A stretch of DNA of 64,000 nucleotides, taken from positions 4,366,501-4,430,500 of the forward strand of contig NZ_CP106869.1 in assembly GCF_025665335.1 (NCBI RefSeq). Direction: 5' to 3'. The position numbers were made by a program, and so were the translations under genes. Positions 37,522 to 52,644 of the stretch are shown in pieces. Position 1 is the first letter of the stretch; each line of letters opens with the position of its first letter. This stretch comes from Xanthomonas sp. AM6 (GTDB lineage: Bacteria > Pseudomonadota > Gammaproteobacteria > Xanthomonadales > Xanthomonadaceae). The notes below the pieces were generated by a model. It did no database searches and was not told the DNA's origin. It saw only the letters and a list, made by a program, of their open reading frames with translations.

Positions 37522-37817
37522 GCGGTGTATCCAGTTGATTAGTAAGGCGCAGAACCCTGGAATCCGGATTCATCCCCGCCTGGATGCCCGCGATTTTAGT
37601 CGATACCCCGCGCCGCCAGTCGGGCGACTGCAGGGAGGCCATAGTGGCATGGGCACGAAAACCCGGCCAAGGCCCGTCCCGGCCGCGGAGGTCCGCCGGT
37701 ATTCGATGTCTGCCGGCGGCGCGCGGACGTGCGCGGCGCGAACGGCATGCGTCCCGCCAAGCGCAAGGCAAGCGGATGCGTGGCGGCTGCATGCCGCCTT
37801 GGGCTGCGGCGGCGCGG

Positions 37818-39428
37818 CTACGGCGCGGCCACCCGTCCGTCGCGCACCGGGACGAACAGCAGGTCCTGGTAGTCGTAGCTGAAATCGGCCAGCGGCGAGA
37901 CCGGCTTCATCGTGATGCGCGCGACCTTGCCGTCGGCGTCCAGCGCGAAGGTGACGTAGGCCGGCTCGAGGGAGCGGTCGTCCCATTCGGTGCGGAAGGT
38001 GTCGTACTGCCAATGGCGCAACGTCCCGGCCATGTTCGGGGTCTGCTTGAAGTCGATGCGCAGCTTGCCCGCGCGCTCGGCGATCTCGATCGGCCCGTAC
38101 CATGCATCGGCATAGCCGCCTGCGTAGCCGGCCGCGGGCAACGAGGGGCGCGACGCCTGGCGCGCGCCCTTGCCGGCGGCCTGCAATGCCGCCAGGCCGC
38201 CCTCCAGCCGCTGCCGGTTCCAGGTGTCGAACGCCGCCACCCAGTCGCGCGGCTGCAGGCCCAGATAGTGGTCGAGCAGTTCGTAGCCCAGGCCGCGCAT
38301 CACGCCGACGTCCTCGGCATTGATCTGCAGCGAAATGCCCAAGTTGCGCTCGGGCACCAGCACGATGAAGGTCAGCACGCCGAACACCGCGCCGCCGTGC
38401 TGCACGACCTTGACGCCGCGATAGTCCTGCACGTTCCAGCCCAGCGCGTAACTGGAGAACTGCGGCGTGATGTCGGCGATCGGCGCCGGATAGGCATTGA
38501 TCGGCACCGGCACCTGCGGGGTCCACATCGCCTGGGCGGACGCCTCGCTGTAGAGGCGCTTGCCGTCGCCGCCCGGCAACGCGCCGAGCGCCAGCTGGAT
38601 CTGCAGCCAGCGGGCCAGATCGTTGGCGCTGGAGGACAGGCCGCCGGCCGGCGCGCCCACCTGGCCCAGCCCTTCGCGCTCGGGCAGCGCCTGCTGCGGG
38701 CCCAGCCCGCGCATGCGCGGATCCAGGCGCGCGTGCGGCTGCGCCCGATTCGGGTTGGCGAAACGGTCGCGTTCGTCGCTGACCGAACTGGTCATGCCCG
38801 CCGGCTTGAACACGCGTTCGCGCATGAAGCTTTCCCAGTCCTGGCCGCTGGCCGCGGCGATCACTTCGCCGGCGACCACGTACAGGATGTTGTCGTAGGC
38901 GTAGGCGCTGCGGAAGCTGGTGGCCGGCTTGAGGTGGCGCAGCGCGCGCACGATGTCGCCGCGGCTGCGCGAACTGCGCGGCACGAACAGCAGGTCGCCC
39001 GCGCCCAGCCCCAGGCCGCTGCGATGGACCAGCAGGTCGCGCACGGTCATCTCGCGCGTCACCCAGGCGTCGTACATGCGGAACTCGGGCAGGTGGTCGA
39101 TGACCTTGTCGTCCCAGCCGAGCTTGCCCTCGTCCACCAGGATCGCCAGCGCCGCGGCGGTGAGGGCCTTGCCGGTGGAGCCGGTGGGGAAGAGGGTGTC
39201 GGCATCGACCGGCTCGCTGCCGCCCAGGCGGCGGACGCCATAGCCCTTGGCATGCACGATCCGGCCCTGCTCGACGATGGCGATCGCCATGCCGGGCACG
39301 TCGTGTTCGGCGAGCACGCGCTCCACGCGCGCGTCGAAGCCCGGCGGCGGCGCGGCGGCGGCGGTGGCGGCCAGGGCAAGGCCGGCCACGACGAACGCGG
39401 CCTGCAGGCATTTCGGAATGGTGGCCAT
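37818..39428 (-). CDS. periplasmic serine hydrolase, class C beta-lactamase/DD-peptidase fold
   Basis: 536 residues. Signal peptide (1-26, ending ATAAAA), then a beta-lactamase-family catalytic domain with SxxK at Ser84-Lys87 (GSTGKALT), the YxN element at Tyr178-Asn180 (AYDNIL) and HGG near the end of the domain (QHGGAVFG). A C-terminal beta-domain of about 130 residues follows (YAGGYADAWYGPIEI). Related enzymes include D-aminopeptidases, esterases and DD-peptidases. As the last gene of an operon with a TonB receptor and DgcN-like enzyme, release of D-amino acids from peptides is the most plausible role; substrate is unproven. Confidence 0.85.
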   Translation of the reverse strand: MATIPKCLQAAFVVAGLALAATAAAAPPPGFDARVERVLAEHDVPGMAIAIVEQGRIVHAKGYGVRRLGGSEPVDADTLFPTGSTGKALTAAALAILVDEGKLGWDDKVIDHLPEFRMYDAWVTREMTVRDLLVHRSGLGLGAGDLLFVPRSSRSRGDIVRALRHLKPATSFRSAYAYDNILYVVAGEVIAAASGQDWESFMRERVFKPAGMTSSVSDERDRFANPNRAQPHARLDPRMRGLGPQQALPEREGLGQVGAPAGGLSSSANDLARWLQIQLALGALPGGDGKRLYSEASAQAMWTPQVPVPINAYPAPIADITPQFSSYALGWNVQDYRGVKVVQHGGAVFGVLTFIVLVPERNLGISLQINAEDVGVMRGLGYELLDHYLGLQPRDWVAAFDTWNRQRLEGGLAALQAAGKGARQASRPSLPAAGYAGGYADAWYGPIEIAERAGKLRIDFKQTPNMAGTLRHWQYDTFRTEWDDRSLEPAYVTFALDADGKVARITMKPVSPLADFSYDYQDLLFVPVRDGRVAAP

Positions 39429-39450
39429 CGTGTGCTCCCGGAAAGGTGCG

Positions 39451-40596
39451 CTAGCGGGGATCGGCGCCGAGGCGCTGCGGACGACGCCACAGCAGCCACA
39501 CGCCCCAGGTCATCAGCGGCAGCGCGTACACCGCCAGGAACAGCCAGGTCAGCGTGCCGTAGCCCTTGGCGATCAGCCCGACCAGGCCGACCGCGCTGGC
39601 GGCGTACACCGCCAGCAGCATCGAGCCGACCGCGATCGCCGGGCGCAGCGCGCGCGGCATCGGCCGCTGCCGCTCCTCGAAGGTCTTGGCCACGCGTTCG
39701 TTGATGGCGTGCAGCAGCGCCACGCCGGTGTCCACCAGGGTCAGCAGCACCGCGATCTGGAACGCCCACTCGAACCACGGCGCATGCAGCTTGCCGAGCA
39801 GGAACGCCGACGGCAGCGCCTCGGCGCCGATCTCGTGGGAGTAGCCCATCATCGCGATGTAGAACACCACGCCGGGCAGCATGCCGAGCGGGCCGGCCAG
39901 CGCGCCGGCGGTCAGCGCCTCGCGCCGGCTGTGCAAGTGGCGGATGCAGAACAGGACCGCGGGAATGGTGGCGACGTTGTAGCCGGCGTAGCGCAGCCCG
40001 GCGCCGAACCAGCCGCCGGCCAGCGGCACGGTGGCGAAGTTGCCCTCGATGCGCTCGCCGAAGGCGACCACGCTCCAGACCAGAAACACCAAGTAGACCA
40101 GGTACAGATAGCCCACCGAGGCGGTGAGGAAGGTCTCGATCGCCGCGCTGCTGTAGACCAGCATCAGCCCGGTGGCGGCGATCATGCCCAGCGAACCGGC
40201 CAGCTTCGGCAGGCCGAACAGGCTGTGCGCGATTTCGCCGGCGGCCGCGCCCATCACCGCCAGGATCACGATCATCAGCGCGAAATAGCCGATCTCGAAC
40301 AGGAACCAGGCGCGGCCGAGCAGCACCTTGAAGAACGAGCGATAGTCGTAGGCGCGGGCGACCCGGGCCAGCTCGAAACTGACCATCAGCACCGCGCTCC
40401 ACACCAGCATGCTGACCGCCATGGCCAGCAGCCCGCCCCAGGGGCCGGCCGGCAGGAAGAACTCCACCAGTTCGCGCCCGGTGGCGTAGCCGCCGGCGAT
40501 CACCGCCGCCTGGAACACGAATCCCGGCAGCAGATAGCGCTGGAACCACGTGGATGCCCCGCTCACCGCACGCACCGTTGCGGGTGGACGCGACAC
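39451..40596 (-). CDS. YkvI-like LeuT-fold membrane transporter
   Basis: 381 residues, about ten helices. It starts STWFQRYLLPGFVFQAAVIA, then GGYATGRELVEFF, the conserved first-helix break of the YkvI family; AFGERIEGNFATVPLAGGWF and LLTLVDTGVALLHAINERV follow. The family is distantly related to amino-acid/cation symporters. Sitting between DgcN and a serine hydrolase, it may import or export a D-amino acid or its derivative. Starts 25 bp after the dgcN stop, so it is co-transcribed. Confidence 0.75.
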   Translation of the reverse strand: MSRPPATVRAVSGASTWFQRYLLPGFVFQAAVIAGGYATGRELVEFFLPAGPWGGLLAMAVSMLVWSAVLMVSFELARVARAYDYRSFFKVLLGRAWFLFEIGYFALMIVILAVMGAAAGEIAHSLFGLPKLAGSLGMIAATGLMLVYSSAAIETFLTASVGYLYLVYLVFLVWSVVAFGERIEGNFATVPLAGGWFGAGLRYAGYNVATIPAVLFCIRHLHSRREALTAGALAGPLGMLPGVVFYIAMMGYSHEIGAEALPSAFLLGKLHAPWFEWAFQIAVLLTLVDTGVALLHAINERVAKTFEERQRPMPRALRPAIAVGSMLLAVYAASAVGLVGLIAKGYGTLTWLFLAVYALPLMTWGVWLLWRRPQRLGADPR

Positions 40597-40621
40597 AGGG
40601 CGGGAGCATGGTCGATGGGGT

Positions 40622-41665
40622 TCATCTCAGGCATTCCTCCACCAAGGTGTCGAACGCCGCGCCGCCGCGCACCGGGTCGGCGACCGCGCAGCCCAGGCGC
40701 CGGCTCTCCGCCGCGCACAGCGCCTCCGCCGCGGCAGCGTCCAGGTGCGCGGTGTTGAGGCTCACGCCCGCGCACCGGATCGACGGGTTGGTGCGCCGCC
40801 CGAGCTGCAAGGCCAGCGCGATGGTGTCCTCGATGCTGGGCAGCGCGAACTGCGGATGGCCCAGCACGCGCGCGCGCCCGGGCTGGTGGCAGACCACCAC
40901 CACGTCGGGTTGGCTGCCGTGCAGCAGCGCCAGCGAGACGCCCGCATAGGCCGGATGGAACAAGGACCCCTGCCCTTCGATCACGTCCCAGTGGTCGTCG
41001 GCGGCCGCGGGCGACAGCAGCTCGGCCGCGCCGGCGGCGAAGTCCGCCACCACCGCGTCCATCGGGATGCCGCTGCCGGCGAGCATGATCCCGGTCTGGC
41101 CGGTGGCGCGGAAATCCGCTGCGACGCCGCGCCGCGCGAACGCCCTGGCCAGCGCCAGCGCGGTGTACTTCTTGCCCAGCGCGCAGTCGGTGCCGACCGT
41201 CAGCAGCCGCTTGCCGCTGCGCGGCGTGCCGCTGGCGACACGGAGGCCCGGCGGCGGCTGGCGCACGTCGATGAGCTGGCGCCCCAGCGCGGCGGCCGTC
41301 TCGCGCAGGCGCTCGATCTCGCCCATCCGCACGTGCATGCCGCTGACGATGTCCAGGCCGGCCTCCAGCGCCTGCACGATCGAGTCCACCCAGCCCTGCG
41401 GGATGACGCCGCCGGCATTGGCCACGCCGATGACCATCGAGCGCGCGCCGCGCGCCGCGGCCTCGGCCGGCGTCAGCCACGGCAATCCGGCGCTGACCGT
41501 CGCGCCCGCGCAGGCGAATTCGCCGACGCAACGCTCCGGCGCCCAGTCGCGCAATCCGAACGCGGTCTTGGCGTAGCCGGGTTCGGTGACGTCGCCGAGG
41601 AACAGCAGATGCGGCCCTGGCAGCGCCTTCACCGCCGGCGGGGATGACACGTGGGTCTGTGGCAT
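40622..41665 (-). CDS. dgcN: DUF1611 protein, probable D-glutamate N-acetyltransferase DgcN
   Basis: 347 residues. The C-terminal domain has a P-loop-like VGTDCALGKKYTALA (158-172) and GQTGIMLAGSGIPMDAVVAD, the DUF1611 signature; the N-terminal Rossmann-like domain is also present (IGVANAGGVIPQGW). In marine proteobacteria and haloarchaea DgcN acetylates D-glutamate, after which the enolase-superfamily partner DgcA racemises it. A DgcA-like gene lies in the sister operon (47375-48394), which supports the name. Activity on D-Glu here is inferred. Confidence 0.75.
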   Translation of the reverse strand: MPQTHVSSPPAVKALPGPHLLFLGDVTEPGYAKTAFGLRDWAPERCVGEFACAGATVSAGLPWLTPAEAAARGARSMVIGVANAGGVIPQGWVDSIVQALEAGLDIVSGMHVRMGEIERLRETAAALGRQLIDVRQPPPGLRVASGTPRSGKRLLTVGTDCALGKKYTALALARAFARRGVAADFRATGQTGIMLAGSGIPMDAVVADFAAGAAELLSPAAADDHWDVIEGQGSLFHPAYAGVSLALLHGSQPDVVVVCHQPGRARVLGHPQFALPSIEDTIALALQLGRRTNPSIRCAGVSLNTAHLDAAAAEALCAAESRRLGCAVADPVRGGAAFDTLVEECLR

Positions 41666-41754
41666 ACGCGGTCGTTCACCTGGAAGATCGTGGGCGCGGG
41701 CCGCCGCTGCATGGCGGCCGATGCGAAGGCTGCCGCCGGAACGCGGCCCTGCGA

Positions 41755-44100
41755 CTAGAACCGGTAGTCGAGTTCGACGCCGACGGTGCGCGGGCGGATC
41801 GGCACCGCCGTCACCTGCACGGGCGTACCGCTGACCTCGCTGTCCAGCGACGTCAACGAGGACCAGGCGTCTTCGTCGGTGACGTTGTTGGCGTACAGGC
41901 GCAGTTCCCAGTTGTTGCGGCCGATGCCGGCGTACAAGTCCAGGACCCGGTAGCTGTCCAGTTGCAGCGGCGCGGTGATCGTCTCGTCCAGCACGGTGGC
42001 CGGGTCGCCCGGGGCGGTGATGCGCTGGCGTTCGGTCGTCGCGTTGACCTGCGAGCCCACGCCGCGCAGCGAGGCGCCCACCTGGCCGTTGAAGCCGCCG
42101 GCGGTCGCGAACGCATATTCGGTGTTCAAGGCCCACGACAACCTGGGCGCGTACGGCATCCGGTCGCCGGCGAGGCCGCTGTTGAGGACCACGTCGAAGC
42201 CGTCCTGCGGGATCACCGTGGGCTCGAAGTCGTTCTTGATGCGGGCCTTGGTGTAGGCGACGTTGACGCCCACGCTCCAGCGGTCGGTGGCCAGGAACAG
42301 CGCGGACAGTTCCGCGCCTTCGCTGCTCGCCTCGCCGCCATTGACCAGCCCGCCGATGCCGTTGAAGGACGCGCCGACCTGGATGTCGTCCCACTCGATG
42401 CGGAACGCGGCCAGGTCCAGCTGCACGCGGCGGTCGGCGAGCTGCGACTTGAGCCCGAGCTCGTAGCTGGTGAGCATCGAGGAATCCACCTTGGGCGGGA
42501 TGCCGGGCAGCGCCACGTTCGGCCCGCCGGGCTGGTAGCCGGTCGCCACGCGCGCGTAGAGCATGCTGTCCTGGCCCAGCTTGAACTGCGGGCTCAGGCT
42601 CCAGGTGAACACGTCCTCCTCCGACTCGCCGGGCGTGTCGCCGAGCGGGACCAGGATGCCCTCGCTCACGTTCTGGCTGAACCATTGTTCGTTGCGCGCC
42701 TGGCGCACGCCGGCATCGAGCTTGAAGCGCTCGCCGATGCGCCAGGAGCCATTGGCGAACACCGCCAGCTCCTTGTAGGTGCTGGGCATGCCGAGCAAGG
42801 TCAGCGTCGAATACGATTGGTCGTAGGGCGCCGGCAGCGCCGCGCCATCGCGCTGCCGCAGCGTCGCCAGCTGGCTCTGCAACGCGTCCTCCTTGGTGTA
42901 GAAGGCGCCCAACAGCCACTCGAAGGCGCCGCCGCTCTTCGAACTCAGCCGCAGTTCCTGGGTGATCTTGTCCAGGTCGAAGGTGTAGCGCACGAACGAA
43001 CTGCCGGGCTCCGGCAGGCCGAGCAGCAGGTTGGCGACCTCGCCGAACTGGATGGTCGCATCGGTCTGGGTCATGGTGTCGGTCTGCGACCAGCCGGTGG
43101 CCGACACCAGGTCCGCCCAGCCCAGGTCCCAGTCCAGGCTCAGCGAGGTCAGCGTCAGTCGCTTGGAAAACGGCTGCGGCTGCCAGGTCCTGTCCACGCG
43201 GTCGCCGAACAGCGGCGCGAGCGTGTCCGGGTCCAGCGCGGTGCCGCCGCGGTCGTCGGCATCGATGCGCTGCTGCAGCACCGACAGGTTCAGGTCGACG
43301 GCGTCGCCATCCCAGAACAACGCCCCGCGCGCGCCAATTTGCTCGCCGCCGTTGATGTCCTTGCGGCCGTCGGTGGCGTTGTCGGTGTATCCCGGCAGCC
43401 CGTTGCGCGCGAAGCTCATGCGCAGCCCCAGCCGATCCTCCTGCAGCGGCACGCTGGCGCCGAAGCGGGTGTTCCAGGCGTGCTCGCCGCCGGCCACCGA
43501 GCGCAGGCCGACACCCAGGCGCAACTCGTCGCCGCTCAGGTCCGGCGCCCGCGCCACGTACTTGAGCAGGCCGCCGATGGCGCCTGCGCCGTACAGCGTG
43601 CCTTGCGGCCCGCGCAGCACTTCCACGCGGGTGATGTCGTAGGGCAGCACGTCCAGCATCAAGGTGTTGGCGCCCTGGTAGATGCCGCTCGATCCCACCG
43701 GCACCTCGTCGATGTAGGTCGCCACCGTGGCGCCGGAGGACAGCGCCGAGATGCCGCGCAACGACACCGAGGTCTGCCCGGGGCTGCCGTTGTCCTGCAC
43801 CTGCATTCCCGGGATCAGGCTCGCGTAATCGGCCAGCGAACTGGCGCCGAGGTTTTCCAGTTGCCGCTCGCCGAGCACGCTGATGGACGCGGCGACGTCG
43901 CGGACGTTCTCCACGCGCTTGTTGGCGGTGACCTCCACCTTGTCCAGCGTCGCCAGGCGTTCGGCCGTGGCCGCCTGGGGCTCTGGGCGCTGCTGCGCCG
44001 GGACGGGGGCCGCGACCGCCCACGCCAGGCTGCCGGCGATGGCGATGGCGAGGGACAACGGCGAGCGGTACCACGGGCGGGCGGACGGAAACGCGTTCAT
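41755..44100 (-). CDS. TonB-dependent outer-membrane receptor
   Basis: 781 residues. A signal peptide (1-35, ending PAQQ) precedes a short region with the TonB-box-like LDKVEVTANKRVENV, a plug domain (about 55-165; IRGISALSS-type segment SLRGISALSSGATVATYIDE, VEVLRGPQGTLYGAGAIGG) and a 22-strand barrel ending VGVELDYRF with terminal aromatic. Resembles FecA/CirA-type receptors used in xanthomonads for nutrient scavenging. No STN domain, so no sigma/anti-sigma signalling is expected. First gene of operon B, behind the promoter at 44182-44210, so it probably imports the operon's peptide or amino-acid substrate. Confidence 0.9.
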   Translation of the reverse strand: MNAFPSARPWYRSPLSLAIAIAGSLAWAVAAPVPAQQRPEPQAATAERLATLDKVEVTANKRVENVRDVAASISVLGERQLENLGASSLADYASLIPGMQVQDNGSPGQTSVSLRGISALSSGATVATYIDEVPVGSSGIYQGANTLMLDVLPYDITRVEVLRGPQGTLYGAGAIGGLLKYVARAPDLSGDELRLGVGLRSVAGGEHAWNTRFGASVPLQEDRLGLRMSFARNGLPGYTDNATDGRKDINGGEQIGARGALFWDGDAVDLNLSVLQQRIDADDRGGTALDPDTLAPLFGDRVDRTWQPQPFSKRLTLTSLSLDWDLGWADLVSATGWSQTDTMTQTDATIQFGEVANLLLGLPEPGSSFVRYTFDLDKITQELRLSSKSGGAFEWLLGAFYTKEDALQSQLATLRQRDGAALPAPYDQSYSTLTLLGMPSTYKELAVFANGSWRIGERFKLDAGVRQARNEQWFSQNVSEGILVPLGDTPGESEEDVFTWSLSPQFKLGQDSMLYARVATGYQPGGPNVALPGIPPKVDSSMLTSYELGLKSQLADRRVQLDLAAFRIEWDDIQVGASFNGIGGLVNGGEASSEGAELSALFLATDRWSVGVNVAYTKARIKNDFEPTVIPQDGFDVVLNSGLAGDRMPYAPRLSWALNTEYAFATAGGFNGQVGASLRGVGSQVNATTERQRITAPGDPATVLDETITAPLQLDSYRVLDLYAGIGRNNWELRLYANNVTDEDAWSSLTSLDSEVSGTPVQVTAVPIRPRTVGVELDYRF

Positions 44101-44181
44101 CTTGTTCTCCCCGGATGGCAATCCATGCGTTGCGAACGGCCCGCTGTGGGCGTCGCGGCGGTCGGCCATGCTCTGATCAGG

Positions 44182-44210
44182 GATAATGGTCCTAATCAGA
44201 GAATTGTCAA
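44182..44210 (-). promoter_or_regulatory. promoter and putative operator of the TonB-receptor operon
   Basis: Minus strand: TTGACA (44210-44205), 17-bp spacer, ATTATC (44187-44182). The 29-bp block matches the promoter at 50552-50580 in 25 positions, including most of the spacer. An 11-bp inverted repeat with one mismatch, CTCTGATCAGG (44171-44181) and CCTAATCAGAG (44191-44201), straddles the -10. A bound repressor would block RNA polymerase; the XRE-cupin protein at 50716 is the likely binder. Confidence 0.78.
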
Positions 44211-44266
44211 TACATCTGGAAAACACCTGCAGCCGCCGGTGCCGGCGCACGGCGCCGGCCACCGGC

Positions 44267-45976
44267 TCAGTTCCGCGCTGCGTCGCGCCAGCCCGGCCCG
44301 CGCACCACGCGTCCCGGTTTCGCGCCGGTGTGTTCGCCCTGGCGCAGCACCTGCACACCGTTGACGAACACGTCGCTGACGCCGGTCGCGTACTGCTGCG
44401 GCGCCTTGTAGCTGGCGCGATCGGCGATGCGGGCCGGATCGAACACCACGATGTCGGCAAAACACCCAGGCTGCAGGCAGCCGCGGTCGCGCAGTTTCCA
44501 GTTCGCCGCCGGCAGGCCGGTCAGGCGGTGGATGCCCTCCTCCAGCGGCATCAGCTTGCGGTCGCGCACGTAGTGGCCCAGGAACCGGGCGACGTTGCCG
44601 TAGGCGCGCGGATGCGTGCTGGACTTCAGGAAGACGCCTTCCGGCGCCGACGATTCGGCATCCGAGCCCAGGCTGGTCCACGGCTGCTTCAACCCCAGCT
44701 CGACGTTGTCCTCGCTCATCAGGAAATACGCCGCGGCCGCGCGCGGCGAGCCGTCCTCGACGATCAGGTCGAGCAAGGTCTCCTCCGCGGGTTTGCCGCG
44801 CGCCTTCGCCACTTCCGCCAGAGACTTGCCGAGCAAGGGCTTCAGCGCTTCGTTCTTGAACTCGGTCAACAGCACGCGCTCGTCCGAGCCGGTGAGCAGG
44901 CGGATATTCTCCCAATCGACATTGGGATCCTTCATCTCGGCGAGCACGCGCGCGCGGATGGCCGGATCCTTGAGCCGGGCGATCATCGCCGCGTTGCCGC
45001 CGGCCTGCACCCACGGCGGCAGGCCCGCGCTCAGCCCGGTGCCGCCGGCGGTGTAGGCGTACATGTTGGCGCTGACCGCCAGGCCCTGCCTGCGCGCCGC
45101 GTCGATCTTCGCGATCGCCTGGGCCATCTTCGGCCAGTTCTTCTCGCCCGCGGCCTTGAGGTGATAGACCTCGGCGCGCTGCCCGGTGGCGCGGGCGATG
45201 CCGATGGTCTCGTCCAGCGCTTCCAGGAACCGGTCCGCTTCGCTGCGCATGTGCGCCACGTAGCCGCCGCCGGATTCGGCCGCGGCCTGCGCGAGCGCGG
45301 TCAGTTCGCGCGTATCGGCGAAGGCGGCCGGCGGATAGATCAGCGAGCTGCCCACGCCCAGCGCGCCTTCGCCCATCGCCTGCCGCACCAGGTCCTGCAT
45401 GCGCACCAGCTGCGCCGCATCCGGCGCGACGTCGCCCTCGCCCAGCTCGTGGATGCGCACCGTGGTGGCGCCCACGAACGAGGCGACGTTCGGCGTGACG
45501 CCGCGCTCGTGCAGATGGTCCAGATACTGGCCCAGCGTGGTCCATTCGATCGGGTAGCGGATGTCGCCCTGCTGCTTCAGCGCGTCGGCCTTCATCGCCG
45601 CGTTGTACGGGCCCATCGACCAGCCCTCGCCGAAGATCTCCAGCGTCACGCCCTGCTTGGTGTCGCTCATGCCGCGGCCATCGGCGATCAGCGATTCGTT
45701 GGCCCAGCTCAGCACGTTGATGAAGCCCGGCGCCACCGCCTGGCCGCGCGCATCGACGGTGTGCGTGGCCGTCGCCGCGCTTCCCGCCGGCAGCAGCGCG
45801 GCGATGCGGTCCCCGCGCACGGCCACGTCGACGCTGCGGCCGGCCGCGCCGCTGCCGTCGTAGACCACGCCGTTGCGGATCAGCACGTCGTACGTTTCGC
45901 CGGCGGCCGCGGCGGCGGGTGCTGGCCCGCCGCCTGCGAGCGCCAGCATCAGAACGGAAAGTCGCAATCCGGACAT
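44267..45976 (-). CDS. amidohydrolase, D-aminoacylase/N-acyl-D-amino-acid deacylase family
   Basis: 569 residues with a signal peptide (1-24), so periplasmic. The amidohydrolase fold is clear: YDVLIRNGVVYDGSG, VDARGQAVAPGFINVL, SALIYPP-type segment GVGSSLIYPPAAFADT and the C-terminal GCLQPGCFADIVVFDP. The canonical HxH metal motif after PGFI is replaced by NVLSW, and the Cys that bridges metals in the Alcaligenes enzyme appears replaced (EIFGEGWSMGP). A group of xanthomonad homologues shares these changes, so it may use one metal or a different substrate. Last gene of operon A; it would release D-amino acids from N-acyl or peptide forms. Confidence 0.8.
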   Translation of the reverse strand: MSGLRLSVLMLALAGGGPAPAAAAAGETYDVLIRNGVVYDGSGAAGRSVDVAVRGDRIAALLPAGSAATATHTVDARGQAVAPGFINVLSWANESLIADGRGMSDTKQGVTLEIFGEGWSMGPYNAAMKADALKQQGDIRYPIEWTTLGQYLDHLHERGVTPNVASFVGATTVRIHELGEGDVAPDAAQLVRMQDLVRQAMGEGALGVGSSLIYPPAAFADTRELTALAQAAAESGGGYVAHMRSEADRFLEALDETIGIARATGQRAEVYHLKAAGEKNWPKMAQAIAKIDAARRQGLAVSANMYAYTAGGTGLSAGLPPWVQAGGNAAMIARLKDPAIRARVLAEMKDPNVDWENIRLLTGSDERVLLTEFKNEALKPLLGKSLAEVAKARGKPAEETLLDLIVEDGSPRAAAAYFLMSEDNVELGLKQPWTSLGSDAESSAPEGVFLKSSTHPRAYGNVARFLGHYVRDRKLMPLEEGIHRLTGLPAANWKLRDRGCLQPGCFADIVVFDPARIADRASYKAPQQYATGVSDVFVNGVQVLRQGEHTGAKPGRVVRGPGWRDAARN

Positions 45977-46040
45977 CGGTGTGCTCCTGTGGAAACCGCG
46001 ACGCCGACGGGCGGCGCCGCATGGTGGAAACCGGCAGACG

Positions 46041-47378
46041 TCAATGCGGGATGCCCTTCGGCAGTGGGTCCGCGGCGGCGGGCGGCGGCGATTCCGCCGA
46101 CGCGGGGCGGCGCGCCCGTTCCGCCTGGCGGATGGGCCGGTCCAGCATCCACAGCAGGCAGGCCGCCAGCGCGGCCAGGCCCGCCAGCAGCACGAAGAAC
46201 CCGGCGTGGCCGATCCGCGACCACAACGCGCCCACCGCGCCGGCCAGCAGGCTGCCGGTGAAGATCGCCAGGAACCATGCGGCCACCGTGGTCGCGCCCA
46301 GCCGCGGCGGCGCCAGGCGCGCGAACAGGCCCAGTCCGGTCGGCAGGATGTACAGCTCGCCCAGGGTGAGGATCGCGAAGAACGCCAGCAGCCATGGCCA
46401 GCCGACGCGCCCGCCGCCGGCCGCCCCGTCCAGCGCCGCCAGCAACAGGTAGGCCAGCGCGACGATCACCGCGCCGATCGCCATCCTGCGCGCCGGCGAC
46501 GTGTCGCGGCCGGCGTCGGCGCGGCGCCGCCAGTGCAGCAGCAGCAGCGGCGTCATGCCGATGACCAGCAGCGGATTGAGCGACTGGAACCAGGTCATGG
46601 GAATCACCGCATCGCCCCAGGCCCGGTCCACGCCGACGTCGATCCACAGCGACAGCGTGTTGCCGATCTGCTCGTAGGCGCCGCGGAAGATGGTCGCCGC
46701 AAGGCCCACGCCCAGCAGCAACAGCCACACCCGCCGGCCGTCGCCGGCAGGTTCGTCCGCAGCGGCCGGCACATGCGTGCGCGTGCGGCTGTCGGGCGGA
46801 AGGTAGCCGCGGCCCAGCACGTAGATGGCCAGGCCGACGAACATGCCGATGCCGGCGGCGCCGAAGCCGTAATGCCAGCCGTAGACCTCGCCCAGGGTGC
46901 CGCAGATCAGCGGCGCCATGAAGCCGCCGATGTTCAGGCCCACGTAGTAGACGTTGTAGGCCCTGCCGCGGCGCGGGTCGTCGGCGGCGTACAGGTCGTT
47001 GATCTGGCTGGGCAGGCTGGGCAGGAACAGCCCGTTGCCCAGCGCGATGGTCGCCAGCGCGACGTAGAACAGCGGTTCGAACGCCATCAGGAAATGGCCC
47101 AGCGCCATCACGCTGCCGCCGATGATCACCGCGTTGCGCTTGCCCAGCCAGCGATCGGCGATCGCCCCGCCCAGGATCGGCGTGAAATACGCCATCGCGG
47201 TGTAGCTGCCGTAGATGAAGGAGGACTTTTCCTGGCCGAACAGCAGCTGCTTGGTCATGTAGTAGACCAGCAGCGTGCGCATGCCGTAGTAGGAGAACAG
47301 CTCCCACATGTTGGTCAGGAACAGGATGGTCAGCCCGCGCGGCTGGCCGAACCATGTCTTGTCCGCCGCCTCGCTCAT
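46041..47378 (-). CDS. POT/PTR2 family proton-dependent oligopeptide transporter
   Basis: 445 residues, twelve or more helices. The PTR family opening appears as LFLTNMWELFSYYGMRTLL; the usual ExxERFxYYG motif is altered (N..EL in place of E..ER). GNGLFLPSLPSQINDLY, FYVGLNIG-type segment YYVGLNIGGFMAPLICG and FAILTLGELYILPTGL are as expected. Imports di- and tripeptides. Its ATG overlaps the dgcA stop (TGA/ATG, 4 bp), coupling import to the epimerase. Confidence 0.87.
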   Translation of the reverse strand: MSEAADKTWFGQPRGLTILFLTNMWELFSYYGMRTLLVYYMTKQLLFGQEKSSFIYGSYTAMAYFTPILGGAIADRWLGKRNAVIIGGSVMALGHFLMAFEPLFYVALATIALGNGLFLPSLPSQINDLYAADDPRRGRAYNVYYVGLNIGGFMAPLICGTLGEVYGWHYGFGAAGIGMFVGLAIYVLGRGYLPPDSRTRTHVPAAADEPAGDGRRVWLLLLGVGLAATIFRGAYEQIGNTLSLWIDVGVDRAWGDAVIPMTWFQSLNPLLVIGMTPLLLLHWRRRADAGRDTSPARRMAIGAVIVALAYLLLAALDGAAGGGRVGWPWLLAFFAILTLGELYILPTGLGLFARLAPPRLGATTVAAWFLAIFTGSLLAGAVGALWSRIGHAGFFVLLAGLAALAACLLWMLDRPIRQAERARRPASAESPPPAAADPLPKGIPH

Positions 47379-48394
47379 GCGCCGGCCCTGTGACCCCAGA
47401 CCTCGTCGCCGCAGGCGATGTGGCCGTCCTCGTAGCGCACCGACGGCACGCGGTCGCGGGCCAGGAAGATCGGCCCGTCCAGGTCGACCACATCGCAGAA
47501 CTGCCCCAGCACGAACGCCGGCGCCGCGGCCAGGCTGGTGCCGCACATGTTGCCGACCATCACCCGTTTGCCCAGCTCGCGCGCGCGCTTGGCCATCAGC
47601 AGGCCCTCGGTGAGCCCGCCGCACTTGTCCAGCTTGATGTTGATCACGTCGAAGCGGTGGTGGCGCGCCTCCAGTTCGGCCAGGTCGAGGATGCTCTCGT
47701 CCGCGGCGAAGGGCAGCGCGCGGTCGATGCCGTCCAGGTCGCTTTCCCGGCCGCGCGCGCACGGCTGCTCGAGCAGCGCGACCTGCGCGGCGACCAGCGC
47801 CGGCAGCAACCGCGGCAGGGACTCCGCATCGTAGCCCTGGTTGGCATCGACCCCGATCCAGGTCCCGGGGCAGCGTGCGCGCACCGCACGCACGCGTGCG
47901 CCGTCGAGCTCCGGGTCGCCGGTCAGCTTGAGCTTCAGCGCGCGCGCCTGCACGTAGGCGGCCGCGCGCTCGGCCATGACCGCCGGCGCGTCGGCACCCA
48001 CGGTGAAGGTGGTCAGCAATGGGCGCACCGCCTGCAGCCCGGCCAGCGCCCACACCGGCACGCCGCGGCGTTGCGATTCCAGCTCCCACAGGGCGCAGTC
48101 CAGCGCATTGCGCGCGCCGCCGGCGGGCAGCAGCGCGCGCAGCGTGTGCCGGTCGATGCCCGCTTCGATGCGCGGCCGCAACGCTTCGAGCGTGGCGATC
48201 ATCGTCTCGGGACGATCGTCCGTGTAGTACACGCCCGCCGCCTCCCCGCGCCCGCGGTGCGTGCCGTCGCGCAGCGTGACCACCGTCGCCGGCATCGCGT
48301 CGAACACGTGTCCGGCGATGCGGAACGGCGCCGACAGCGGCAGCGGTTCGTTGTGCAGATCGAGTTCGATGGGGCCGGCGATGGTCACGCGCAC
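47375..48394 (-). CDS. dgcA: enolase-superfamily dipeptide epimerase / N-acetyl-D-glutamate racemase (DgcA-like)
   Basis: 339 residues. All catalytic residues of the L-Ala-D/L-Glu epimerase group are present: Lys154 and Lys156 (KLKLTG), metal ligands Asp183 (GVDANQG), Glu209 (LLEQP) and Asp232 (AADES), catalytic Lys (NIKLDKCGG, 254/257), and the DxD motif Asp304-Asp306 that binds the dipeptide amino group. It could epimerise L-Ala-D-Glu from murein or racemise N-acetyl-D-glutamate made by DgcN. The presence of both dgcN and a peptide importer leaves both readings open. Confidence 0.85.
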   Translation of the reverse strand: MRVTIAGPIELDLHNEPLPLSAPFRIAGHVFDAMPATVVTLRDGTHRGRGEAAGVYYTDDRPETMIATLEALRPRIEAGIDRHTLRALLPAGGARNALDCALWELESQRRGVPVWALAGLQAVRPLLTTFTVGADAPAVMAERAAAYVQARALKLKLTGDPELDGARVRAVRARCPGTWIGVDANQGYDAESLPRLLPALVAAQVALLEQPCARGRESDLDGIDRALPFAADESILDLAELEARHHRFDVINIKLDKCGGLTEGLLMAKRARELGKRVMVGNMCGTSLAAAPAFVLGQFCDVVDLDGPIFLARDRVPSVRYEDGHIACGDEVWGHRAGA

Positions 48395-48446
48395 CTCGCG
48401 AAAGACATGCAGGGAAGTGGCGGGCAGCGGGTGCCGCCCGCCTCGC

Positions 48447-50471
48447 TCAGTAGTACGCGCCGTAGCCGATCAGGTGGTGGGCCAATCCCACCCACAGCAG
48501 GTACAGGCATGCCAGCGCCAGCAGCACCGCCCACAGCTTGGCCAGCCAGCGGCGCCTGCCGCGCAGCACCTGCCATGCGTTCCACAGCGACAGCGCCGCG
48601 CCGACCGGGAGCGCCACCAGGGCGAACAGCCGCAGCGCGTTGATCATCGCGTCCGAACCGGCCCCGGTCATTTCCAGGTCGCTGAGCATCGCCACCACGA
48701 AGCCGAGCGCACCGCCGATCGACAGCAGCACCGCCAGGGCCGCCAGCCGCACCACGCGATGGGCGCGCGCGTCCTGCCCCGACAGCGCGTAGGCGACGCC
48801 ATAGTGGCGGCGCACCAGCGCCGAGACCGGCCACGCCAGCACGGTCAGCAGCAGCACCGCCAGGCTCGCCGCCAGCAACGGCAGCGCGAGCGAGCGCCAC
48901 AGCGACAGGCGCTCGAACACCATGATCGCCGCGTAGGGCTCCATGCTGAAACGCACGACCTTGCCGTCGACCACGTCGGCGGCCAGGCGGTCGCCGCCGG
49001 CGACGTCCTGCCACAGGTACGGCGCGATCTCGCGCCACTTCTTCGGCGCGCCGCTGGCGTCCGTCGCCATCGACACGCTGATCGTGCCGTCCTCGTTGGC
49101 CGTCACCTTGACCTGGCCCAGCAGGTTCACCAGCGACAGCAGATTGCTTTGCGGACGGCGGCTGCTGTCGTAGTGCCCGACCATCTGCTGCGCATGCAGC
49201 CTGGCCTGCTCCGGCGCGACGCCGACGGCGGCGCGCGCCGCCGGTCCCGGCAGGTAGCGGTCGGCGAATCCGCGCACCAGCGCGCCGCGGATATGGCCGG
49301 TCGCCCCATCGCGGCCGCTGCTGTTCATGGACACGAAGATGCCGATGCCGTCGTCCAGGAACAGCTGCAGATCGCTGTGGAACCACATGGTGTCGCCGCC
49401 GTGCGCGATCGCGCGGTGGCCGTTCATGGTGGTTTCGTAGAAGCCGAGCATCATCCGGTTCAGCGGCCCCACCGACGCCTGCCCGGTGGAATGCATCTTG
49501 CGCGCGGTGTCCGCCCCCAGGATGCGCGCATCGCCGTAGGCGCCGTCCTGCAGGTGCGCGATCATGAAGCGGCCCATGTCCGCACCGGTGGCCGCCAGGC
49601 TGCCCGCCGGCGCCAGGCTGATGAACTCGTAGTCCTTGGGCTTGCCGTCGGAGGCCTTGTCGTAGCCCTTGGACACCTTGGCCAGCAGGGCCGGCGGCAG
49701 CGGTTGCGCGAAGCTCGAATGGGCCATGCCCAGGGGCTGGAAGATGTGGCGCGCGATGTAGGCGTCGAACGGCTCGCCCGACACGCGCTGCACGATGTAG
49801 CCGGCCAGCGCCGTCGCATAGTTGGAATACGCCGGCGTGGCACCGGGCACGTGGATGCGTTCGGGAACCCAACGCTTCAGCGCCGCCTCCAGCGGCACGA
49901 TCTGGTCGGCATGCGAGGTGATCAGGCCGCGGATCTGCTCTTCCAGGCCGGTGGTGTGGGTCATGATCTGGCGCAGCGTCATCGGCTTGCCGTCGCGCGG
50001 CGGAATCTTGAAGTCGATGTAGCGGTTGACGTCGGCGTCCAGGTCCAGCTTGCCTTGCTCGACCAGCTGCATGACCGCCGTCCAGGTGAACAGCTTGGAC
50101 ACCGAGCCGGGCCGGAACAGGGTGCCGTCCGGGTCGACCGGCGTGCGCTTGTCGATGTCCGAGTAGCCGTAGCCCTTCTGCAGCAGCACCTGGCCGTCCT
50201 TGACCACCACCACCACTGCGCCGGCGATGTCGCCGCTCTCCAGCGCGTAGGGCAGGTAGCCGTCCAGCCAGGCCTCCACGTCGGCGCGGGCCAGCACGGG
50301 CGCGCCGGTGGTCGCGCTGCCGGTGTCGGGCAGCGGCGAAGCGGCCGCGGTGGCCGGCGCCGGCGCCGGCGGAACGGCGGGCGGGATTGAAGGCGCCTGC
50401 CGCGCACTGACGGGCGCAAGCGATGCCACGAACAACAGACAGCCGCACAACGCGAACGGGATGACGCGCAT
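48447..50471 (-). CDS. membrane-anchored serine hydrolase, class C beta-lactamase/DD-peptidase fold
   Basis: 674 residues. Signal peptide (1-23), Pro/Ala linker (to about 60), catalytic domain with SxxK at Ser123-Lys126 (SVSK), YxN at Tyr215-Asn217 (YSN) and HGG (AHGGDTMWF), then a beta-domain and four membrane helices in the last 190 residues. This architecture places the active site in the periplasm next to the membrane. First gene of operon A. Probably a D-amino-acid-specific peptidase or esterase; a true beta-lactamase role is unlikely given the operon. Confidence 0.85.
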   Translation of the reverse strand: MRVIPFALCGCLLFVASLAPVSARQAPSIPPAVPPAPAPATAAASPLPDTGSATTGAPVLARADVEAWLDGYLPYALESGDIAGAVVVVVKDGQVLLQKGYGYSDIDKRTPVDPDGTLFRPGSVSKLFTWTAVMQLVEQGKLDLDADVNRYIDFKIPPRDGKPMTLRQIMTHTTGLEEQIRGLITSHADQIVPLEAALKRWVPERIHVPGATPAYSNYATALAGYIVQRVSGEPFDAYIARHIFQPLGMAHSSFAQPLPPALLAKVSKGYDKASDGKPKDYEFISLAPAGSLAATGADMGRFMIAHLQDGAYGDARILGADTARKMHSTGQASVGPLNRMMLGFYETTMNGHRAIAHGGDTMWFHSDLQLFLDDGIGIFVSMNSSGRDGATGHIRGALVRGFADRYLPGPAARAAVGVAPEQARLHAQQMVGHYDSSRRPQSNLLSLVNLLGQVKVTANEDGTISVSMATDASGAPKKWREIAPYLWQDVAGGDRLAADVVDGKVVRFSMEPYAAIMVFERLSLWRSLALPLLAASLAVLLLTVLAWPVSALVRRHYGVAYALSGQDARAHRVVRLAALAVLLSIGGALGFVVAMLSDLEMTGAGSDAMINALRLFALVALPVGAALSLWNAWQVLRGRRRWLAKLWAVLLALACLYLLWVGLAHHLIGYGAYY

Positions 50472-50551
50472 CGCTTCTCTCCGAGCTGGTGATGAGCAAT
50501 CCCGCGGCCTCGAACACCGGCGGATGCGGGCTGTCTTTGTCCTGATTTGGT

Positions 50552-50580
50552 AATAATGATCCCAATCGGAGAATTGTCAA
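50552..50580 (-). promoter_or_regulatory. promoter and putative operator of the serine hydrolase-dgcA operon
   Basis: Minus strand: TTGACA (50580-50575), 17-bp spacer, ATTATT (50557-50552). The spacer half-site CCCAATCGGAG (50561-50571) corresponds to CCTAATCAGAG at 44191-44201, and a weaker inverted partner TCCTGATTTGG lies at 50540-50550. Transcription would start about 50545, 74 bp ahead of the ATG. The divergent regulator gene begins 136 bp away on the other side. Confidence 0.75.
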
Positions 50581-50715
50581 CCATGTCAAAAGACCCGGCC
50601 CATCCCGCTGGGGCCCTTGGCCTTCGGCCTTTCCAACCTCATCCACTAAGGCGATGATGATCCTGCCCAGGACGCTTCCCCAGGCACGGGCATTCCCTCA
50701 GGAGAGCAGGTAAGG

Positions 50716-51447
50716 ATGAATTCGCACCACCCCACCATCGGCGGACTGCTGCGCTCGCTGCGGGCGCGCAAGGGCTGGACCCTGAAGCAGATGAGCCAGC
50801 ATTCCGGCATTCCGCTCTCCACCCTGTCCAAGGTCGAGCACGACCGCCTGACCCTCACCTACGACAAGCTGCTGCAGCTCAGCCAGCGCCTGCAGCTGCG
50901 CATGTCCGAATTGTTCGCCGAGCAGGACGACACCCCCGAACCCGCGGTGACCGCGCGCCGCAGCATCGGCCGGATCGAGGACGCGATCCGGGTCAACACG
51001 CCCAACTACGATTACTACTACCTGTGCCCCGAGCTGCGCCGCAAGCGCATGATCCCGGTGCTGACCAAGGTGCGCGCCAAGAGCATCGAGGAGTTCGGCG
51101 AACTGGTCCACCACTCGGGCGAGGAGTACATCCACGTGCTCGAGGGCCGCGTGGAAGTGCACACCGAGTTCTACGACCCGATCGTCCTGGATGCGGGCCA
51201 ATCGGTCTACATCGACTCCAACATGGGCCACGCCTACCTCGCCGCCAAGGGCTGCAAGGAAGCCCTGCTGCTGGGCGTGTGCTCCAGTTCCGACGAGCAG
51301 TTGCTGGAATCGCTGATGACGCTGCACGGCGACGAGACCGCCACCGGGCGCGTGCGCCAGAAGGCCGGGGCCATTGCGACGAAAACCGCTGCGGCCAAGC
51401 CGAAGGCAGTCCGTCGCAGTCCGGCCGCGGCCAGGAAAAAACCCTGA
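50716..51447 (+). CDS. XRE-family regulator with cupin sensor domain
   Basis: 243 residues. HTH domain at about 8-62 (LLRSLRARKGWTLKQMSQHS, then SGIPLSTLSKVEHDRL), cupin domain at about 115-195 (HHSGEEYIHVLEGRVEVHTE and LDAGQSVYIDSNMGHAYLA). The cupin probably binds the pathway effector. A Lys/Ala/Arg-rich tail of about 30 residues (TAAAKPKAVRRSPAAARKKP) resembles histone H1-like extensions and may add nonspecific DNA contacts. Divergent from operon A and the only regulator in the island, so it likely controls both matching promoters and perhaps itself. Confidence 0.87.
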   Translation: MNSHHPTIGGLLRSLRARKGWTLKQMSQHSGIPLSTLSKVEHDRLTLTYDKLLQLSQRLQLRMSELFAEQDDTPEPAVTARRSIGRIEDAIRVNTPNYDYYYLCPELRRKRMIPVLTKVRAKSIEEFGELVHHSGEEYIHVLEGRVEVHTEFYDPIVLDAGQSVYIDSNMGHAYLAAKGCKEALLLGVCSSSDEQLLESLMTLHGDETATGRVRQKAGAIATKTAAAKPKAVRRSPAAARKKP

Positions 51448-51567
51448 CGCAGGCAACGCCAGGCGCGCGTCGCGCGGATGCTGCCGAGTGCCGATGCTGG
51501 CGGTCAGCACCGGCAACATGGCGCGGGCTCATGAGCTCGCCTTCATCCTTCCTCTCCTTGGTGAATG

Positions 51568-52644
51568 TCAGCCGGTCGCGCGTTGCGTATCGGAGTGCAC
51601 GAGCGCGGCGAAATCGCGGCACAGCGTATCGACCGCGTCGGCCTGGGTGGCCCACGAGGTCACGAAGCGGATCACCCAGCGGCCGTCGCCCAGCCGTTGC
51701 CAGCGCTCGAAGTCGTAGCGCTGCGCCAGCGCCTCGACCGCGGAGGACGGCAGCGCCACGAACAGCTGGTTGGTCGGCGACTCCGAGGCGAACTGCGCGC
51801 CGGCCGCGGCCAGGCCGTCGCGCAGCCGCGCGGCCATGCGGTTGGCGTGCGCGGCCAGCTCGTAGTACAGGCCGTCCTCGAACAGCGCAGCGAACTGCGC
51901 CCCCAGCACCATGCCCTTGGCCAGCAGCGCGCCGCGCTGCTTGAGCAGGTAGCGGAAGTCGGCCTGCAGCGCCGGGTTCACGATCACCAGCGCCTCGCCG
52001 AGCAGCGCGCCGTTCTTGGTGCCGCCGATGTAGAACGCATCGGTCAGCGCGGCGACGTCGGCCAGGCCCAGGTCGTTGCCCTCGGCGGTCAGCGCGCTGC
52101 CGATGCGCGCCCCGTCCAGGAACAGCCACAGCCCGTGCGCGTCGCAGACCTCGCGCAAGGCCTGCAGTTCGCGCTTGCGATAGACGGTGCCGAGTTCGGT
52201 GGTGTTGGACACGTACACCAGCCGCGGCTGCACCATGTGCTCGTTGTCGTGCTCGGCCAGCAGCGGCGCGATCAACTCCGGGCTCAGCCGGCCATCGGCC
52301 GCTTCCACGGTCAGCACCTTGTGCCCGGTGGCCTCGATCGCGCCGGTCTCGTGGATGGCGATGTGTCCGCTGGCGGCGGCGATCACCGCCTGGTGCGGAC
52401 GCAGGAACGCGCCGATCGCGGCCAGGTTGGTCTGCGTGCCGCCGACCAGCAGGTGCACGTCGGCGTGCGCGCAGCCGATCTCGCGGCGGATCAGCTGCGC
52501 GGCGCGTTCGCTGTGCCGGTCCAGGCCGTAGCCGCCGTTCTGCTCGGCGCTGGCCGCGGCCAGCGCGGCGAGCAGGCGCGGATGCGCGCCTTCGCTGTAG
52601 TCGTTGCGGAAGCTGATCCGCGGGTTCGGCGCGGACACGCTCAC
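51568..52644 (-). CDS. low-specificity L-threonine aldolase (beta-eliminating lyase family)
   Basis: 358 residues. PLP enzyme of the aspartate aminotransferase fold: RNDYSEGAHPRLLAAL opening, HETGAIEATGHKV, FLDGARIGSAL and the PLP lysine in IGGTKNGALLGEAL. Cleaves threonine or allo-threonine to glycine and acetaldehyde. The GTG start at 52644 overlaps the trpE stop (GTGA), so it is translationally coupled to trpE; no metabolic reason is evident. Alternative Met starts farther in would truncate the fold. Confidence 0.9.
   Translation of the reverse strand: MSVSAPNPRISFRNDYSEGAHPRLLAALAAASAEQNGGYGLDRHSERAAQLIRREIGCAHADVHLLVGGTQTNLAAIGAFLRPHQAVIAAASGHIAIHETGAIEATGHKVLTVEAADGRLSPELIAPLLAEHDNEHMVQPRLVYVSNTTELGTVYRKRELQALREVCDAHGLWLFLDGARIGSALTAEGNDLGLADVAALTDAFYIGGTKNGALLGEALVIVNPALQADFRYLLKQRGALLAKGMVLGAQFAALFEDGLYYELAAHANRMAARLRDGLAAAGAQFASESPTNQLFVALPSSAVEALAQRYDFERWQRLGDGRWVIRFVTSWATQADAVDTLCRDFAALVHSDTQRATG

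Follow-up and report, generated by a model that had tools for sequence, protein, structure and literature searches.

A block of nine genes in the genome of Xanthomonas sp. AM6 (contig NZ_CP106869.1) appears to encode a dedicated regulon for the catabolism of peptides that contain D-amino acids. The block occupies positions 37818–51447 of the analysed stretch, hereafter the window (64,000 nucleotides, positions 4,366,501 to 4,430,500 of the contig), and consists of eight minus-strand genes and a divergent plus-strand regulator, as judged by codon-position guanine-plus-cytosine (GC) content and family scans. That it serves D-residue peptides is well supported by its context, and our best guess from the sequences is that the preferred D-residue is neutral or aromatic. 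A regulon under control of the XRE-cupin regulator, acting on peptides with probably neutral or aromatic rather than glutamate side chains, is the reading that we favour with moderate confidence. The first-pass annotation of this DNA had listed eight genes and one dedicated regulator, and family scans together with open reading frame (ORF) analysis recovered all of them. The features are:

48447..50471, minus strand: S12 serine hydrolase 1, 674 amino acids, PF00144, with SxxK (S123), YSN (215) and HGG (357)
47375..48394, minus strand: enolase-superfamily dipeptide epimerase/N-acyl-amino-acid racemase, island (Gly) subtype
46041..47378, minus strand: POT/PTR2 di-/tripeptide:H+ symporter (TIGR00924, 283.1 bits, cut-off 130.2)
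44267..45976, minus strand: amidohydrolase of the D-aminoacylase superfamily with its HxH metal ligands replaced
41755..44100, minus strand: TonB-dependent outer-membrane receptor, plug and barrel, ATG at 44100
40622..41665, minus strand: DUF1611/DgcN-like protein, GTDCALGKKY subtype
39451..40596, minus strand: polytopic permease with seven hydrophobic segments
37818..39428, minus strand: S12 serine hydrolase 2 with a C-terminal DUF3471 domain, SxxK (S84), YDN and HGG
50716..51447, plus strand: XRE-cupin (PuuR-like) regulator, divergent
50541..50580, minus strand: promoter/operator 1, 109 base pairs (bp) upstream of the hydrolase-1 ATG
44171..44210, minus strand: promoter/operator 2, 110 bp upstream of the TonB receptor ATG
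37523..51541, no strand: extent of the accessory island, judged by the aldolase–trpG interval of three genus mates

Both operons carry a near-identical promoter/operator, one upstream of hydrolase 1 and one upstream of the TonB receptor gene, of the form TTGACA ... CATTAT with two AATCAGGA-like half sites. In the window it reads TTGACAATTCTC(C/T)GATT(A/G)GGA, followed by the −10-like CATTAT and the second AATCAGGA-like half site; across 60 sites from relatives and the window the consensus is TTGACAATTcTCt.ATtAGGAtcATTAT..Cc..At.gGga. Gaps within the operons range from −4 to 89 bp, the POT start codon overlapping the epimerase stop, and operator 2 lies inside the 166-bp gap that precedes the TonB receptor gene. 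At up to 3 mismatches the operator occurs exactly twice in the 4,917,337-base genome (reversed control: 0). The earlier proposal of one regulated system reaching from the outer membrane to the cytoplasm is supported. The grouping of S12 and TonB genes is not due to chance, since the 11 PF00144 and 69 PF00593 matches of the whole genome, those of the island included, would give about 0.03 and 0.2 matches per 14 kb, and 2 and 1 are seen. The GC content of the island is close to that of the surrounding DNA.

The operator varies together with the regulator. We counted it exhaustively, using a pattern derived from the window itself, in 76 loci (L033–L152; L and G numbers denote the loci and genomes compared) that hold an epimerase or DgcN homologue plus an S12 or TonB gene, the duplicates L106 and L121 having been dropped. 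A site was counted if it had no more than 4 mismatches and lay at most 400 bp upstream of such a gene of the island type, and a regulator was called close at 58% identity or more. Of 34 loci with a close regulator, 29 carry the operator, as do 1 of 12 with a distant one and 1 of 30 with none in view; at 3 mismatches or fewer the counts were 22/34, 0/12 and 1/30. Within the close-regulator loci, 46 of 47 operator sites lay upstream of island-type genes (reversed pattern: 0). The locus with an operator but no regulator in view, L042, has a regulator (68%) just outside the fetched stretch. Within the counting limits the motif was not found in five close-regulator loci (L041, L095, L096, L101 and L110). 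L041 has a 2-mismatch site 44 bases before an M19 dipeptidase ORF, whose aligned part is too distant for counting, and L095 has the operator at 5 mismatches. Three of 20 genus genomes contain the regulator, and the same three contain the operator, at two sites each and with no more than 2 mismatches. Shared descent accounts for part of this co-variation. Nevertheless, a 21-base non-coding word kept from Gammaproteobacteria to sphingomonads is hard to explain without use, and the regulator probably binds it.

A search with the operator alone in the genomes of 20 relatives, chosen as cluster holders, gave 33 sites in 17 genomes (reversed control: 0). Sites outside the first cluster were traced in two genomes. 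In G195, two operators precede an unlinked alpha/beta hydrolase, amidohydrolase (35%), S12 hydrolase, epimerase (60%) and TonB receptor (36%); this second set is L226 4509–12465 (G195:C34), with the same operator twice. In G278, an unlinked operator precedes a homologue of hydrolase 1 (50%). Two more weak sites, G272:C20 and G277:C2, may be chance.

We infer each catalytic and transport step of a possible route, as well as the side-chain preference. The TonB receptor would carry an oligopeptide across the outer membrane, both S12 hydrolases would cleave at D-residues in the periplasm, the amidohydrolase might remove an N-acyl or N-terminal group, and the POT symporter would import di- and tripeptides. 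The epimerase would convert L-X-D-Y dipeptides to L,L-dipeptides for ordinary peptidases. Free D-residues could enter through the second permease, to be N-acetylated by the DgcN-like enzyme and then racemised by the same epimerase. More tentatively, and with rather less confidence, we propose that the island represents an undescribed and widespread regulon for neutral or aromatic D-residue peptides, for example nonribosomal or cyanobacterial ones, in which a second DgcN–DgcA-like pair acetylates and racemises D-amino acids other than glutamate and the XRE-cupin regulator and its operator run the whole route. Peptides with D-residues, some of them toxins or antibiotics, rank among the longer-lasting forms of organic nitrogen. 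If the proposal is true, one operator sequence would be a genome-wide marker of bacteria able to live on such peptides, and subfamilies now labelled dipeptide epimerase and DUF1611 would gain a testable function apart from D-glutamate.

According to the first-pass annotation, a failure of the genes to co-occur in relatives would have refuted its proposal. They do co-occur, and the identical eight genes stand in identical order in L033, L036, L039, L040, L183 and L184. In L036 the POT and TonB genes are each in two pieces and the permease has a stop codon, the locus being otherwise complete. Homologues of the DgcN-like protein were found in 64 of 250 genomes of the order, that of the window included; 40 neighbourhoods were fetched of 80 non-self matches, and DgcN, S12 and TonB genes stood together in 20 of these 40, some as partial matches. 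Rearranged versions occur in Lysobacterales, sphingomonads and Burkholderiales. The island epimerase, used to scan named genomes, gave 587 loci; the 80 best of them include Luteimonas, Stenotrophomonas, Lysobacter, Sphingomonas, Sphingopyxis, Sphingobium, Novosphingobium, Roseateles, Duganella, Dyella, Rhodanobacter and others, and epimerase, S12 and TonB genes are together in 36 of these 80 (32 among the 48 closest). A search of plasmids with the POT symporter, aimed at mlrD-like copies, turned up copies of the island in Croceicoccus and Novosphingobium instead. On plasmids of Novosphingobium and Sphingobium the genes in a row are annotated as XRE regulator, serine hydrolase, dipeptide epimerase, TonB receptor, DUF1611 and hypothetical; of the two annotated copies, one adds a peptide transporter and the other a second serine hydrolase and a dipeptidase. 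Judged by these sequences, the cluster occurs in many soil and water bacteria.

The family names suggest a different function, D-glutamate or murein-peptide use, in which muropeptides would be trimmed, L-Ala-D-Glu imported and epimerised, and D-Glu passed through DgcN–DgcA. The first-pass annotation had leaned to this specificity; it is not supported, and we regard it as unlikely. DgcN and DgcA are the nearest families by name, and DD-peptidases are among the S12 enzymes. However, the DgcN-like protein of the island scores 447.1 bits against a cut-off of 480 (NCBIfam NF041892) and the epimerase 342 bits against 400 for DgcA (NF042940) and 209.3 against 343 for L-Ala-D/L-Glu epimerase (PRK15129). 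For comparison, L067 exceeds both Dgc cut-offs (DgcN 523.7, DgcA 422.3 bits). The Gly-type epimerase of L061, which belongs to a sister clade, scores 400.2 bits against the DgcA cut-off of 400, and this speaks for a D-glutamate function. Of the identification as DgcN and DgcA, the kinship stands, by full-length homology; against the names themselves speak the missed cut-offs and the lack, in the epimerase, of an arginine common to the DgcA-type clade and the E. coli L-Ala-D/L-Glu epimerase.

This arginine separates two subtypes. At the I-[SA]-R position of 114 aligned epimerases (window included, two duplicates kept), 77 rows have Gly, 29 Arg and 8 another residue or a gap; the window has Gly. 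DgcA-type rows combine Arg with PYxRY, VGCM and, where DgcN is in view, mostly GTDCSxGKM[YF], whereas island-type rows combine Gly with GVYY, mostly VGNM and mostly GTDCAxGKKY. L050, L051 and L058 are intermediate (Arg and VGCM with GKKY), as are Rhodoferax and its kin (Arg with GVDY, VGNM and GKKY). In L050 and L051, the Arg-type epimerase and DgcN accompany an S58 peptidase, a gene of a dicarboxylate symporter family and a gene that groups with the class A beta-lactamase of L042, another D-amino-acid setting. In a tree of 115 rows (two duplicates and short rows dropped), the island clade comprises 67 rows with support 100/99 and zero Arg rows. A branch of 31 rows with support 98/90 holds 29 labelled Arg, the Ruegeria DgcA, which has the Arg, and a single truncated sequence. 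Most of the other 17 rows are Gly, but they include one long-branch Arg row, L150. By these sequence features, the DgcN and DgcA homologues of the island are a distinct, co-varying subtype. The NCBI-named DgcA proteins of Ruegeria and Enterobacter carry the loop Arg and, with their DgcN partners, have the other loop set and other neighbours. In G039 and G053 an island-type cluster and a canonical-type DgcN stand side by side, which likewise argues against a D-glutamate function of the island.

The neighbours of the two subtypes differ as well. After removal of loci in which the epimerase had less than 6 kb of sequence on one side or the other, 74 were left (46 Gly, 22 Arg, 6 other), a sample that leans towards the island because it was drawn with the island's own proteins. 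S12 genes accompany the epimerase in 38/46 Gly-type but 2/22 Arg-type (DgcA-type) loci, TonB genes in 34/46 versus 2/22, the regulator in 29/46 versus 0/22, POT in 19/46 versus 0/22 and M19 membrane dipeptidases in 17/46 versus 0/22. DgcN is present in 38/46 and 18/22, respectively, and the permease in 24/46 Gly-type loci.

As to the side chain, the 20s-loop Arg, which we take to bind glutamate, lies at +5 from the P of PF in the E. coli epimerase 1jpd and at +6 in that of B. subtilis 1jpm. The window has Gly and His at these positions, and Arg is found at +6 in 3 of the 77 Gly rows. Because Arg is missing at both +5 and +6, a side chain other than glutamate seems probable; since the loop Arg of the two reference enzymes sits at two neighbouring positions, this claim is weakened. 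Dipeptide epimerase 3jva has Gly at +6 and was reportedly solved with dipeptides ending in Tyr. K154, K156, D183, E209, D232 and K254 of the island epimerase are invariant in 15 aligned rows and are presumably the catalytic lysines and acidic metal ligands. Dipeptide epimerases that accept hydrophobic C-terminal residues exist, according to the available part of PMC13338154.

Several observations weigh against a dedicated system for neutral or aromatic D-residue peptides. Epimerase 3rit, which reportedly prefers cationic dipeptides, has Arg at +6, and loops are thus a poor guide to specificity. The DLDGP motif is common to both subtypes and therefore does not distinguish dipeptides from N-acetyl amino acids as substrates. 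Both S12 hydrolases belong to a fold that also includes esterases and beta-lactamases. Of the 46 Gly-type loci, some of which are cut short, 27 showed no POT, 32 no amidohydrolase and 22 no permease gene; the core is therefore narrower than eight genes. In the order's own sample the contrast between Gly- and Arg-type loci is weaker (S12 6/11 versus 1/7, TonB 5/11 versus 0/7).

The murein-peptide task seems to be done at a separate locus of the same genome (L195 5391–14832, G000:C1 at about 568.4–577.8 kb). Its epimerase (G000:C1:570580–571557) matches the B. subtilis L-Ala-D/L-Glu epimerase 1jpm with 355.7 bits and keeps the PFKTALRT loop. Genes for two hydrolases, NlpC/P60 and S12, lie near it, together with those for a YkuD protein, a TonB receptor and a MurR/RpiR-type regulator. 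Its naming rests on the PDB match and these neighbours because its NCBIfam scores are below the cut-offs. An epimerase match of this kind (33–35% identity to the island epimerase) occurs in 19 of 20 genus genomes, the neighbours having been viewed in that of the window. Since the genome keeps this separate locus, the island is probably not a cell-wall recycling system.

The two S12 hydrolases score 219.8 and 210 bits against PF00144 and have the SxxK, YxN and HxG motifs of the family. By hydropathy, both hydrolases and the TonB receptor have an N-terminal hydrophobic signal, and none was detected in the epimerase or the DgcN-like protein. The same scan did not flag the amidohydrolase as signal-bearing; by eye, and helped by lipoprotein-like starts in relatives, it is probably exported. 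This protein had been described as D-aminoacylase-like, and its place in that superfamily stands. The HxH metal-ligand motif is missing, however: LSWANES replaces the SHTHDD region, with H242, H272 and D439 retained. The symporter lies well above the POT cut-off. The permease has no Pfam or NCBIfam match, and we take it to be YkvI-like. M19 dipeptidases number three in the genome, all outside the island.

The S12 fold is also that of class C beta-lactamases and ClbP, and the hydrolases could thus serve defence, destroying D-residue peptide antibiotics or beta-lactams of competitors while the remaining proteins salvage the pieces. We hold this to be quite improbable. Consistent with it, the plasmid copy L189 has an RND pump nearby, and Stenotrophomonas-type clusters contain a class A beta-lactamase gene, which directly adjoins the DgcN-like gene in L042 (8400–9401) and likewise occurs in L082, L089 and L095. 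However, intake and use fit better with a TonB and a peptide importer that share one operator with an epimerase and a transferase, and family scans found no efflux gene among the nine island proteins. Even less probable to us is a general operon for L-dipeptides or for esters and lactones, with D-specificity a mere echo of family names. In its favour, the S12 and amidohydrolase families catalyse a broad range of reactions, HxH is missing from the amidohydrolase of the island, and POT symporters carry L-peptides. Against this stand the recurrence of M19 dipeptidases and the epimerase of the enolase type, whose catalytic lysines and acidic residues are intact and for which there is no obvious use on L-peptides.

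Within the genus the island is accessory. It sits between an aldolase-like gene (named by eye, 51568–52635, itself between trpE and trpG) and trpG, and three of 20 genomes hold it: that of the window, G261, where it is at the same place, and G260, where it is at another. Within 1.5 kb of trpG, 11 of the 20 genomes have the aldolase, 2 have trpE without the aldolase (L180, L181), 2 have hydrolase 2 (G261 and that of the window) and 5 have neither aldolase nor trpE. Three genus mates that were read further have the order trpE–aldolase–trpG with 0.06–0.8 kb between aldolase and trpG; their flanking sequence agrees with the window as far as 37522 and again from 51542 on, which leaves about 14.0 kb between. 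We considered the trp flanks as part of the system and rejected them, as the aldolase or trpE lies near trpG without the island in genus mates. G253 has a distant epimerase (56%), DgcN (54%), permease (37%) and TonB receptor (25%) in a different arrangement. The trpG match of G190 (L175) contains one in-frame TGA, a sequencing error or decay.

Parts of the island resemble known systems. Hydrolase 1 is like ClbP-type membrane S12 peptidases in that its S12 domain is followed by four C-terminal hydrophobic segments, presumably comparable to the membrane helices of ClbP, and it matches the chains 7mdc and 7ul6. Several other S12 chains score higher, however, and the island lacks a biosynthetic cluster. 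With the murein-peptide recycling locus the island shares the epimerase superfamily and nearby TonB and S12 genes, but that locus is separate and has an Arg-type loop and a MurR/RpiR regulator. DgcN–DgcA is described, in the accessible parts of PMC10845958 and PMC11747546, as a pathway of D-glutamate catabolism (EC 2.3.1.312 and 5.1.1.25). As there, a DUF1611 protein is paired with an enolase-superfamily racemase, with full-length homology. The island differs in falling below both family cut-offs, in its 20s loop (Gly for Arg), 50s loop (GVYY for PYxRY) and the motifs VGNM for VGCM and GTDCAxGKKY for GTDCSxGKMY, and in the added receptor, hydrolases and operator. A description of the cluster was not found in the literature searched, which included the available text of PMC6563193, PMC4520899, PMC6167471, PMC10845958, PMC11747546, PMC12474180, PMC13338154 and PMC8142540, most subscription papers being beyond the search.

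Compared by gene and domain descriptions, the microcystin-degrading mlr cluster is, by analogy, the nearest counterpart in layout. The island is not a member of it, as none of its nine proteins has a Pfam match of MlrA (CPBP/Abi) or MlrC (M81) type. A search for M81 in four sphingomonad genomes carries no weight here, since it gave a match neither there nor in any control. As far as the accessible descriptions go, mlr names no epimerase, DgcN, TonB receptor or regulator. According to the same partial sources, a beta-lactamase/PBP-like domain is present in MlrB and a PTR2 domain in MlrD, and the products of mlrE and mlrF are a dipeptidase and a D-aminoacylase, respectively (PMC12474180, PMC4520899). 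In both systems, as far as mlrA–F are described there and in PMC6563193, a beta-lactamase-fold hydrolase, a PTR2 transporter, a dipeptidase and a D-aminoacylase are clustered in sphingomonads, and the flow would lead from the outer membrane to the cytoplasm.

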